A stretch of DNA of 39,542 bases, taken from assembly GCA_029252045.1 (NCBI GenBank), contig JAQXCD010000066.1:1-39542 (forward strand). The letters are read 5' to 3'. Positions 15,175 through 17,996 of this stretch are shown piece after piece; within the stretch, counting starts at the first letter, position 1, and each line of letters opens with the position of its first letter. Below the pieces are notes generated by a model. That model did no database searches. It had not been told where the DNA came from and saw only the letters and a program-made list of their open reading frames with translations. Origin of the DNA: Sulfitobacter sp. GTDB taxonomy: Bacteria; Pseudomonadota; Alphaproteobacteria; Rhodobacterales; Rhodobacteraceae. A program made the position numbers and the translations under genes.

Positions 15175-15567
15175 ATGATTATAGCAGATAAGCAGAACCT
15201 CACAGGGACCTCACGGGACGCAAGCGGGCCGGGCTGGGAGAGCCTCCGGCTATTGGTGCGATCCGACGGGATGGGGTTTTCTATGACCGAAACGCGCGTG
15301 CTTCCGGGCGCAGTTTTGCGCCTGCAATACAAACACCACATCGAGGCGTGTTATTGCATCGGCGGCGCGGGTGAGGTGGTTGAGCTGGACAGCGGCAAGG
15401 TCCATCCCATTCACGCAGGCGTCCTCTATGCGCCCAATGCACATGATCTGCACGAAGTCCACGTGCCCGCAGGTGGTGAGGCGCTGCATCTGATCTGTGT
15501 TTTCTCACCCGGACTGGAAGGCACCGAAGTTCACGGCCCCGATGGCAGTTATCCGGCGGCCGACTAG
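15175..15567 (+). CDS. ectC: L-ectoine synthase, solitary
   Basis: A 130-aa cupin that matches ectoine synthase along its entire length; the enzyme cyclises N-gamma-acetyl-L-2,4-diaminobutyrate to the compatible solute ectoine. Characterised EctC proteins bind iron through Glu57, Tyr85 and His93, and this protein has Glu57 (HHIEACY), Tyr85 (GVLYAPN) and His93 (HDLHEV) at the same numbers. Trp21, Arg25, Thr40 and Tyr52, described as substrate contacts, are also present, as is the tail VFSPGLEG...[11 protein letters not shown]. The ATG at 15175 has GGGAG six bases upstream. No ectA, ectB or ask_ect gene is adjacent. Its TAG stop overlaps the stop of the convergent amidohydrolase gene. Confidence 0.88.
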   Translation: MIIADKQNLTGTSRDASGPGWESLRLLVRSDGMGFSMTETRVLPGAVLRLQYKHHIEACYCIGGAGEVVELDSGKVHPIHAGVLYAPNAHDLHEVHVPAGGEALHLICVFSPGLEGTEVHGPDGSYPAAD

Positions 15568-16607
15568 ATAATCTCGTCCTCGTCAAACAGGGGGGCTTCT
15601 TCCAGTTGGGTGGCCAACTCACCCACGGCCGCCTCTGCCATGTCGCCGGATTTCACATCGGCGATATGGAACAATGCGTCGCCCTCATGCACAATCGGCA
15701 CAACGGCGCGGCCAACGATGATGCCCGCGTATTTGCTGGCGACCTCGATCTCTTCTTCGCCGAACGGGTCGGAAATGGCAGCGACGATATCGCCTTCTGC
15801 CACCACATCACCCTCGGCCTTATACATCCGTAGCAGCCCGCCCGCAGGGGCGCGCAGCCAGTGACTGTTGGAGCATAGCAGCGGCGCGGCCTTTGGCGCG
15901 GCAATGCCTGCACGCGGCAGCATACCGGTTTCTTTGAGTACGCGCAGGATGCCCGCAACGCCAGCGCGGACCGACATTTCGTCAAACCGCATGCCTTCGC
16001 CTGCCTCATAGAGCAGCACGTCCACGCCGGCCCTCTTGGCTTCTTGGCGCAAGCTGCCATCGCGCAATGACGAGGTCAGGATCACGGGTGCGCCAAATGC
16101 TTTGGCCAGCTTCATAGTCACGCGGTTGTTTGCAGATACCCGTACCTGCGGCAGGTTGATCCGGTTTACAGCGGCGGAGTGCAGATCAATCCCGAGAGAG
16201 CAGCGCGCGACAATCTCGTTCAGGAAAATATACGCCAGCCGCGAGCCGAGCGATCCATGCGGCGATCCCGGAAAACAACGATTCAAATCGCGCCGGTCGG
16301 GCAAATAGCGCGAGTGGTTGAGGAAGCCGAAGGTGTTCACAATCGGCACCACAATCAGCGTGCCATTCAGCGACTTGAGGTTTTTGGAGCGCAGCATACG
16401 CCGCACAATCTCGACGCCGATGACTTCGTCGCCGTGGATGCCCGCGCTGACAAAGGTTGTCGGTCCATCGTGGCGCCCGTGGATGATATGCGCCGACAAG
16501 GTAACAGGGGTGTGATCCGACAGGGTGCTGACGGGGATCTCGATGGTCTTGCGGGTGCCTGCTTCAACAGACTGGCCCGCAATCACAAAAGCGGCGCGTT
16601 TTGTCAT
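15564..16607 (-). CDS. AstE/AspA-family zinc amidohydrolase linked to RimK
   Basis: A 347-aa member of the succinylglutamate desuccinylase/aspartoacylase family, which are M14-like zinc enzymes that cleave amide or peptide bonds. The metal motif His58-x-x-Glu61 is in [11 protein letters not shown], the third ligand is in GIDLHSAA, and the substrate-carboxylate motif is [11 protein letters not shown]. The C-terminal third ([12 protein letters not shown]...[18 protein letters not shown]) resembles a barrel-sandwich/biotinyl-like domain, as in many family members. Its start overlaps the rimK stop (ATGA), so the two are translationally coupled. Inference: it may remove residues that RimK adds, or trim a related product. 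An ectoine-degradation role (DoeB/EutE type) was considered but the rimK linkage argues against it. Confidence 0.85.
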
Positions 16608-17509
16608 CCCTTGCCTTTGGTTTTGGTTGCGTTGGGTTTGGCGTTCTTTTCTAGATATTCGATGATCATGCCGGCAATATCCAGCCCTGTTGCATTCTCC
16701 ACGCCTTCCAGACCGGGGGAGGAGTTGACCTCCATCACCACTGGGCCGTGGTTGGAGCGCAGCATATCCACGCCGCAGACATTCAGCCCCATCGCCTTGG
16801 CAGACCGCACCGCTGTCGAACGTTCCTCGGGCGAGAGTTTGATCACCTTGGCCGAGCCACCGCGGTGCAGGTTGGAGCGGAAATCCCCCTCTGCACCGGT
16901 ACGCTTCATTGCCGCGACAACCTTGCCGCCCACAACGATCGCACGAATGTCGGTGCCGCCGGCTTCTTTGATGAACTCTTGCAGCAGGATGTTCACACCA
17001 GCACCGCGAAACGCCTCAACCACAGACACAGCCGAACGGTTGGTGTCGGCCAGAACCACGCCGATGCCCTGCGTGCCTTCCAGCAGCTTGATCACCACAG
17101 GCGCGCCACCCGCAAGTTTGAGCACTTCATCGGTCTGTTTCGGGTCATGGGCAAAAGTCGTGACAGGTAGGCCGATCCCGTCCCGCGCCAGCAATTGCAT
17201 CGAGCGCAGCTTGTCGCGCGAGCGGCCAATGCCGACGCTTTCATTCAGCGGATAGACGCCCTGCATCTCGAACTGGCGCAGAACGGCGGTGCCGTAGAAG
17301 GTGACCGAAGCACCGATGCGTGGAATCACGGCGTCATAGCCTTCCAGCTTTTCACCGTTGTAATAAACTTCAGGACGGCGTGACGCGATGTTCATATAGC
17401 AACGCAGCGTGTTGATAATATCCAGAGTATGCCCCCGTGCCTCTGCCGCCTCTTTCAGGCGTTTATGCGAGTACAGGTTCGGGTTGCGGGCCAGCATGGC
17501 TATTTTCAT
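16604..17509 (-). CDS. rimK: RimK-type alpha-L-glutamate ligase
   Basis: A 301-aa ATP-grasp ligase, almost the same length as E. coli RimK and closely similar throughout. E. coli RimK adds glutamates to the C-terminus of ribosomal protein S6 and can make poly-alpha-glutamate. Visible landmarks are MKIAMLARN at the start, [44 protein letters not shown], the ATP-grasp strand [29 protein letters not shown], and the metal-binding [15 protein letters not shown] 17509 is chosen: AAGGA lies seven bases upstream, it follows the protease stop by four bases, and it matches the E. coli N-terminus. A longer open frame up to 17593 only overlaps the protease gene. The last 15 residues are Lys/Asn-rich. Confidence 0.94.
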
Positions 17510-17513
17510 CGGT

Positions 17514-17996
17514 CTATCCTTCAAAGTCGGGCTTGTCGCTGACCAGATAGGACTGGTCGGGGTGGACAAGAATGTTTCGGCTGCGCAGCGCACGGCGCCC
17601 CAGTATCAGCGGAAAGCGCATGTTCCCGCGGTCGGTCAGCGAGATGTCGATCTTCCAACGCCGCCCCGCTAATACCATAGGCGTGCGGATTACGATACGC
17701 GTCTCCGGAGTGCCACTGGTATTTGTGATGTCACGTTTGGTAAACACCGGAAATTCACAGGTCTGCCCTTCGACGCCATGGGGCGAGGGTGCGGTAAAGC
17801 GCACCCATTTCCCGCCGTCTTTGGTAAACGTCTCGATATTCTGGGCATGCAGTGCGGTGGTCTTGGCACCTGTATCGACCTTGATGGCAAAATCCAGCAG
17901 GTTCATCTCGGGCAGGCTGATGCATTCATGCCAGCCGATGACGGTATAGGACTGCGACAGTTGGGTGGTCGTGGTTTTCATACTGGGGTTGTCCAT
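17514..17996 (-). CDS. RimK-linked retropepsin-like aspartic protease (RimB/Zn_protease family)
   Basis: A 160-aa protein of the ATP-dependent zinc protease/DUF785 family, which has a retropepsin-like fold. The catalytic aspartate motif is Asp41-Thr-Gly-Ala in [16 protein letters not shown], and the hydrophobic-hydrophobic-Gly flap-partner motif is [10 protein letters not shown]. In Pseudomonas a related protease (RimB) is encoded with rimK and acts in the same ribosome-modification pathway. Here the gene is upstream of rimK and separated from it by four bases. Starts at 17996 or 17981 are both possible; neither has a clear ribosome site. Active retropepsins are homodimers, which fits the short single-motif chain. 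The target is unknown. Confidence 0.85.

Follow-up and report, generated by a model that had tools for sequence, protein, structure and literature searches.

What does a zinc hydrolase of the AstE/AspA type do in an operon with RimK? The question is raised by contig JAQXCD010000066.1 of a Sulfitobacter sp., the whole 39,542 nucleotides of which are referred to here as the window. On its minus strand, three coupled genes encode, in order, a RimB-like retropepsin, RimK and the hydrolase. On balance, the operon is probably a unit for the turnover of poly-alpha-glutamate, in which the hydrolase would act on the Glu chains made by RimK. The features of the operon are as follows, with protein lengths in amino acids (aa).

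17514..17996, minus strand: RimB-like retropepsin-type aspartic endopeptidase, 160 aa (PF05618, DTGA)
17865-17876, minus strand: DTGA of the RimB-like protein, residues 41-44 (sequence)
17510..17513, minus strand: 4-base spacer from the rimB-like stop to the rimK ATG (sequence)
16604..17509, minus strand: RimK alpha-L-glutamate ligase, 301 aa, C-terminus TKTKGKG (NF007764)
16604..16607, minus strand: ATGA overlap of the rimK stop and the hydrolase start (sequence)
15564..16607, minus strand: AstE/AspA-fold zinc hydrolase of a RimK-dependent clade, 347 aa; predicted Glu-releasing exo-hydrolase (PF24827, AlphaFold2, Foldseek, RimK co-occurrence)

This layout had been described in an original prediction made from the DNA alone, and it was exact as to the order of the three genes, the gap of 4 bases (17513-17510) and the overlapping ATGA (16607-16604). 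The families named there agreed with Pfam in each case, with 104 bits to PF05618 for the protease, 220 and 151 bits to PF08443 (RimK) and PF18030 (Rimk_N) for RimK, and 136.9 bits to PF24827 (AstE_AspA_cat) for the hydrolase. The hydrolase motifs HGDE, DLNR, DLHS and YEAGE were all present. A promoter and terminator scan gave no signal standing clear of shuffled sequence.

Co-occurrence of the hydrolase clade with RimK

The hydrolase was used as the query against 299 Pseudomonadota genomes. It returned 80 clade matches in 77 genomes, all of at least 291 bits and spread over 25 families; beyond the clade, seven matches were found at 189-205 bits and the remainder at 100 bits or less. RimK or RimBK, scored as present from 264 bits so that genome G395 (221 bits) was counted as lacking it, was found in 125 of the 299 genomes. 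The clade hydrolase never occurred without RimK: all 77 clade genomes carried both, 48 genomes had RimK only and 174 had neither. Within the eight families holding both states, the probability that all clade genomes would have RimK by chance was approximately 1.5e-15, a value that applies to the listed genomes only and from which relatedness inside families was not removed. The hydrolase and RimK genes were adjacent in 53 of the 77 genomes (55 gene pairs, 53 of them spaced by -1 to 64 bases) and apart in 24.

A scan of named genomes gave 80 loci, these being the best-scoring 80 of 569. RimK was adjacent in 44, of which 37 also had RimB, and the hydrolase was unlinked in the other 36. RimK or RimBK at more than 200 bits (presence being scored from 200 bits in this set) was found in 35 of the 36 genomes with an unlinked clade gene, including G442, in which RimK is in two pieces on separate contigs, and G459, in which it is partial; 36 of 36 is reached only if generic ATP-grasp matches are counted. 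These 36 genomes overlap the sample of the host family by three members.

As a control, genomes with generic AstE paralogs only were compared with the remaining clade-free genomes. RimK was present in 12 of 52 and in 36 of 170, respectively (p 0.85), and the proposal that the AstE/AspA family at large follows RimK was rejected. It is the hydrolase clade, and not the whole family, that follows RimK, whether linked or unlinked. Since the association persists without linkage and with the RimB-RimK fusion, it follows the activity rather than the locus. The co-occurrence survey put forward in the original prediction was run with the three genes found to co-occur, and the view of a write/trim/erase arrangement as a functional unit is well supported, the hydrolase clade being found almost only with RimK.

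Within the host family, 149 genomes were sampled. A stand-alone RimK of the operon type (65-100% identical) was present in 24, and a RimK match at 47-60% identity within a longer frame of 472-634 aa in 36; three genomes had both. In the six longer frames examined, a RimB-like stretch preceded RimK, making them RimB-RimK fusions, and the others were classed as fusions by length. Such a fusion is already known (PMC11957791). Among the 24 stand-alone RimK loci, the hydrolase adjoined 20, the RimB-like gene 22 and the full trio was found at 19, which argues that the arrangement is not due to chance. The exceptions were L004, with no RimB match, L017, L020 and L026, with no hydrolase, and L018, with neither. 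The genome of L018 carries an unlinked hydrolase, L291 (matching RimK coordinates). At the six fusion loci examined, no adjacent hydrolase was found.

Structure and conserved residues of the hydrolase

The hydrolase fell far under the equivalog cut-offs of the characterized members of its family, with 21 of 306 bits for AstE, 29 of 180 for aspartoacylase and 79 of 403 for DoeB. Its best relatives among named genomes place the host near Yoonia/Loktanella. An AlphaFold2 model from a 21-member alignment had a predicted local distance difference test score (pLDDT) of 89.6 and a predicted template modelling score (pTM) of 0.88. The top Foldseek matches in the PDB were DoeB 6twm (query TM-score, TMq, 0.77), 3cdx (0.76-0.78) and other AstE-like structures. 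The cyanophycin dipeptidase CphZ (8ein) matched at TMq 0.73-0.74 with an E value of 6e-22, and weaker matches were obtained to succinylglutamate desuccinylases (TMq ~0.5) and to the tubulin deglutamylase CCP5 (0.47).

The 21 clade members were then compared with 12 generic paralogs, these being the paralogs below 150 bits; L339 and L342 (151-158 bits) were set aside and are also without R149, R156 and R187. The HxxE...H...E site was complete in the hydrolase (H58, E61, H143 and E201), and the positions of interest are listed below.

16425..16436, minus strand: H58-G-D-E61, predicted zinc ligands (H58 and E61 in 21/21 clade members and 12/12 generic paralogs)
16278..16283, minus strand: N109-R110 (DLNR), predicted alpha-carboxylate clamp (21/21 clade, 12/12 paralogs)
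16179..16181, minus strand: H143, predicted third zinc ligand (21/21 clade, 12/12 paralogs)
16140..16163, minus strand: R149-x-N151-x-P-Q154-x-R156, clade-specific segment beginning six residues past H143 (alignment)
16047..16049, minus strand: R187, Arg specific to the clade, located 14 residues ahead of the catalytic Glu (alignment)
16005..16007, minus strand: E201, predicted catalytic Glu (21/21 clade, 12/12 paralogs)

The clamp role of N109 and R110 is assumed by analogy to the M14 carboxypeptidases. Six residues (R149, N151, R156, R187, E204 and W250) were present in all 21 clade members and in none of the 12 paralogs, while R105, R106 and Q154 were nearly clade-specific (1/12 paralogs). 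R149, N151, R156 and R187 were also kept in all 80 named loci. Because the motifs HGDE and RYLPDRRDL were used to pick those loci, residues 53-61 and 100-108 are conserved among them by construction, a circularity that does not affect R149, R156 and R187.

At position 187, nine of the 12 paralogs have Asp or Glu and the clade has Arg. DoeB, which yields the basic product diaminobutyrate, has Asp there. The spacing of 14 residues between R187 and E201 is close to the distance from residue 255 to Glu270 in carboxypeptidases A/B. Based on these sequence comparisons, R187 is read as a putative switch from a basic to an acidic leaving residue, which R187 together with the added R149 and R156 would suit. 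R187 may correspond to the basic S1' residue expected of a Glu-specific zinc carboxypeptidase with CCP-like activity.

Two variants of the hydrolase were observed elsewhere. The alphaproteobacterial genome G426 is 1.3 Mb in size and has RimK; its hydrolase homologue, at L357:2983-4005, carries H58K, N109A, R110N, H143Q and E201Q, with R187 kept. In the gammaproteobacteria, four genomes that contain both RimK and the hydrolase (G267, G249, G304 and G313; loci L353-L356) encode additional, longer relatives of the clade that have an apparent signal peptide, judged by eye, and a linker, with R149, R156, R187 and the catalytic residues kept. The latter are possibly an exported counterpart of the hydrolase, as RloA is of RimB.

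RimK and the RimB-like protease

RimK passed the cut-off of NF007764 (S6--L-glutamate ligase) over its full length, with 443.9 bits against a cut-off of 331. RimK is reported to add Glu to RpsF and to make poly-alpha-glutamate, in vitro from Glu (PMC11957791), and the Pseudomonas enzyme to bind 3-5 Glu through named contact residues (PMC10092738). Six of the seven contact positions were kept in RimK here (R8, S14, R64, S68, R189 and N262), and the seventh, position 7, has Ala in place of Ser. The nearest solved structures were Pseudomonas 7qyr (463 bits) and 7qys (450 bits), followed by E. coli 5zct/4iwx (396 bits). The description of this RimK as E. coli-like was therefore not upheld, since two Pseudomonas enzymes outscore that of E. 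coli among the solved relatives. A basic tail, [KR]G[KR]G (window 16607-16627), was nearly fixed, being found in 80 of 93 RimK frames in a motif search of 138 loci. It is present in Pseudomonas 7qyr, and the alignment to E. coli RimK ends short of it.

The RimB-like protein carries the catalytic Asp of the DTG motif, and its solved relatives are 9g59, 9g58 and 2pma. RimB itself cuts polyglutamate, for which five contiguous Glu suffice, and stimulates the synthesis of poly-alpha-glutamate by RimK (PMC11957791). In P. fluorescens, a loss of the Glu tail independent of RimB has also been reported (PMC7343187).

C-terminal tails of S6

The original prediction held that the RimK sequence favours S6 as the target, and suggested that rpsF be checked for an acidic end. 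In the genome studied here this check failed, as S6 ends QKRDERPERRERR, that is, in Arg, with a basic C-terminus (RRERR) and no terminal Glu. Across the host family, S6 ended in Glu in one of the 24 genomes with stand-alone RimK (23 were without), in none of 17 with the fusion and in none of 20 without RimK; S6 was read for all 24 of the first group, for 17 of the 33 fusion-only genomes and for 20 of those without RimK. None of 14 further RimK-bearing alphaproteobacteria had a terminal Glu, giving a total of 1/55. S6 as the chief target in the alphaproteobacteria was rejected on this count and because the tails resemble those of the RimK-free genomes (0/20). The tails are compatible with Glu addition to an Arg-ended S6, a poorly supported proposal, yet the argument for S6 is removed. 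The acceptor in alphaproteobacteria is probably not chiefly S6; other roles of RimK where RpsF lacks a terminal Glu are raised in the discussion of PMC11957791.

Over the Pseudomonadota, a terminal Glu was present on S6 in 23 of 60 genomes that have both RimK and the hydrolase, in 19 of 28 with RimK alone and in 5 of 12 with neither, as read in 60 of 73, 28 of 40 and 12 of 24 genomes of these classes that had an S6 match. The terminal Glu was nearly uniform within families: 10/11 in f43, with E. coli-type GDSEE tails; 5/5 in f38, where the tails end in DE and were taken as Pseudomonas-like; and 9/9 in f47, counted over genomes with RimK and the hydrolase.

Some hydrolase genes were observed near ribosomal protein genes. 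At Leisingera L262:10001-12155, the gene lies directly upstream of, and co-directional with, rpmC-rpsQ-rplN. At L265, L267, L268 and L271 (Leisingera/Epibacterium/Tritonibacter group), ribosomal protein genes, named by eye, are 1.8-3.0 kb downstream of it. The L262 group resembles the ribosomal S10/spc cluster, the full sequence having been read for L262 only, and the placement in the five loci is probably the result of one event. Informally, rpsF was also seen within 4-16 kb of rimK or the hydrolase in six genomes of two families (G234, G350, G182, G193, G221 and G240).

Proposed turnover of poly-alpha-glutamate and its alternatives

Based on the near-obligate association with RimK, the fold match to CphZ and, more weakly, CCP5, the intact catalytic residues, Arg 187 with the added R149 and R156, the six conserved Glu-contact residues of RimK and the reported action of RimB on polyglutamate, we infer Glu chains to be the substrate of the hydrolase. 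In the proposed turnover unit, RimK would spend ATP on attaching alpha-linked Glu to the carboxylate of an acceptor, either a protein C-terminus or an oligomer of Glu. Internal cuts in the Glu runs would be made by the RimB-like retropepsin, which may also stimulate RimK. The hydrolase would work in exo mode, stripping Glu from the C-termini of the tails, of the oligomers released by RimB, or of both, and returning it to the pool. Such an exo-hydrolase would finish the breakdown, as the short tails and oligomers left by RimB would be converted to free Glu.

Several observations weigh against this proposal. The hydrolase is dispensable for RimK function as such, being absent in 48 of the 125 RimK genomes, and in the organisms described in the cited work the E. 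coli rimK stands alone and the Pseudomonas operons are rimBK or rimABK. Genome G477, a Beggiatoa metagenome-assembled genome of unstated completeness, has the hydrolase with a best RimK match of 39 bits. The protease scored 116.6 bits against the NCBIfam RimB family NF052261, below the cut-off of 200, and is named RimB-like only. The argument from position 187 comes from the sequence and from the specificity rules of carboxypeptidases, with a presumed location in the pocket. Finally, the homologue in G426 is likely a pseudoenzyme, as judged from its substituted residues, and a non-catalytic role is possible there.

Two choices of acceptor fall inside the turnover proposal, S6 and a free polymer. 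S6 is unlikely. It is favoured by the score of RimK above the S6--L-glutamate ligase cut-off, by the terminal Glu of f43, f38 and f47, the last in the presence of both enzymes, and by the Leisingera locus with its four relatives, probably a single event. The Arg end found here speaks against it, as do the alphaproteobacterial count of 1/55 beside 0/20 without RimK and the proportion of 23/60 where RimK and the hydrolase are both present, compared with 19/28 for RimK alone and 5/12 for neither. A free poly-alpha-glutamate cycle without a protein acceptor, similar to that of cyanophycin and serving as a reserve, counter-ion or osmotic pool, is conceivable but doubtful. In it, RimK would polymerize free Glu, RimB would fragment the polymer and the CphZ-like hydrolase would give Glu back. 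The synthesis of poly-alpha-glutamate from Glu in vitro and its stimulation by RimB (PMC11957791) are in keeping with such a cycle, as are the match to the CphZ fold and the improbability of S6 as acceptor in alphaproteobacteria. A gene for an MscS-type channel within 10 kb, on either strand, in 7 of the 80 named loci is weakly in its favour. The analogy to cyanophycin does not show function, however, and the few recurring clusters of neighbouring genes with an annotation included none recognized as a storage gene. To our knowledge, and with no search aimed at it, poly-alpha-glutamate has not been reported in these bacteria.

Outside the turnover proposal, RimK could make a small molecule containing Glu and the hydrolase could take off its N-acyl cap, an activity unrelated to chains; this is considered very improbable. 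N-acyl amino acids are the substrates of AspA, AstE and DoeB, which belong to this fold family, with aspartoacylase acting on N-acetylaspartate, and the vertebrate homologues of RimK make N-acetylaspartylglutamate. Both points were counted in its favour. Against it are the scores far below the AstE, aspartoacylase and DoeB cut-offs, and the RimB-type endoprotease in 37 of the 44 linked named loci, which points to chains. No acetyltransferase was recognized among the annotated neighbour clusters, most clusters having been left unannotated. The original prediction had offered two options for the operon. The case for S6 drawn from the RimK sequence was not borne out, and the other option, in which a glutamate peptide is made and broken down, has at least equal support.

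Comparison with known systems

The operon shares with the Pseudomonas RimBK and RimABK systems the pairing of RimK with a co-encoded retropepsin, and six of the seven contact residues are kept (PMC11957791, PMC7343187). It differs in the added AstE/AspA-fold hydrolase, with no rimA between or beside the genes, in the basic S6 tail without terminal Glu and in a protease that is below the RimB cut-off. The Rlo operon of P. aeruginosa also combines a RimB-related retropepsin with an ATP-grasp protein, and RloA cuts RimB substrates in vitro (PMC12239564). Its protease is secreted and its transglutaminase inactive, and no desuccinylase or aspartoacylase is mentioned in the text (PMC12239564).

The cyanophycin system (CphA, CphB and the isoaspartyl dipeptidase CphZ, which cleaves the dipeptide remaining after cyanophycinase has acted; PMC12661447) resembles the operon in having an ATP-grasp synthase, a dedicated depolymerase and a hydrolase of the CphZ fold. 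In contrast to the Asp-Arg polymer, an alpha-Glu homopolymer would be expected here, itself a prediction, and the depolymerase is a retropepsin. R187 is found where the generic paralogs mostly have Asp or Glu, CphZ itself being outside that alignment. The N-acetyl-diaminobutyrate deacetylase DoeB/EutE provides the closest fold in the PDB (6twm) and has the same zinc motif; its score is far under the cut-off, as given above, and it has Asp at the position of the clade R187. The eukaryotic TTLL/CCP tubulin system likewise pairs a ligase with a zinc carboxypeptidase in reversible polyglutamylation, with CCP5 as a distant fold match, and the relation is at the superfamily level only. Tubulin polyglutamylation forms side-chain branches, in contrast to the main-chain alpha-Glu of RimK.

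In literature searches, no paper joining RimK with an AstE/AspA hydrolase was found; a 2009 amidoligase survey lay outside their coverage, the original prediction mentions such arrangements in genomic surveys, and priority is uncertain. The present analysis contributed the strict RimK dependence, the control with generic paralogs, the change at residue 187, the S6 result and a small gene described below. Experimental work on RimK in the cited reports concerns E. coli and Pseudomonas. Families f43 and f38, which resemble these organisms by their S6 tails, have RimK without the clade hydrolase, and for this reason the RimK-dependent third enzyme has probably been overlooked in experiments. It is tentatively suggested that many alpha- and gammaproteobacteria might have a poly-alpha-glutamate cycle of their own, equipped with a synthase, an endo-depolymerase and a Glu-releasing hydrolase and only secondarily, if at all, concerned with S6, either as a homopolymer counterpart of cyanophycin or as a reversible protein tag, and that it has been missed because the RimK organisms studied lack the third enzyme. 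If the hydrolase does remove or recycle added Glu, polyglutamylation by RimK would be reversible beyond the action of RimB. Judging by the S6 tails, the textbook target seems not to account for RimK in the alphaproteobacteria, which raises the question of what else RimK modifies.

Neighbouring genes

Of 170 sequences scanned, some of them overlapping, 18 have a small gene of ~95 aa beside rimB. In 14 it was co-directional just upstream of rimB and in 4 on the opposite strand, and it often overlapped rimB. It is absent from the genome studied here.

L266:5776-6078, L297:8258-8560, L285:8226-8507 and 15 further loci: small orphan gene of alphaproteobacterial RimB-RimK-hydrolase operons

The protein had no significant match in Pfam, NCBIfam or the PDB. 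Its model (pLDDT 82.9) showed a helix/strand order like that of a winged helix, with no PDB match under an E value of 0.1. In the 299 genomes, three strong matches (118-136 bits) were all beside RimB-RimK-hydrolase, and two weak ones were not. A regulator is the likeliest role, and a substrate is possible.

Other neighbour clusters were each present in at most 13 of the 80 named loci. Those annotated were the MscS-type channel (cluster 13, seven loci, both strands), CorA, an aldehyde dehydrogenase, an ABC transporter and a peroxiredoxin.

In the window, a gene for the ectoine synthase EctC (15175-15567, plus strand) is convergent with the hydrolase gene, and the two stop codons overlap in the common bases CTAG (15564-15567). 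As no EctA was found in the genome (assembly 90% complete), this is probably a lone EctC. A part for the hydrolase in ectoine catabolism, suggested by the DoeB likeness and the EctC neighbour, was rejected given the low DoeB score and the lack of any tblastn match to EctC at 1e-4 in the 80 named loci.

Seven Sulfitobacter-type loci with an unlinked hydrolase (L261, L264, L272, L274, L275, L289 and L299) lie near apparent trp genes, identified by eye from translations, and in six of the seven a trpE-like gene is just upstream of the hydrolase.

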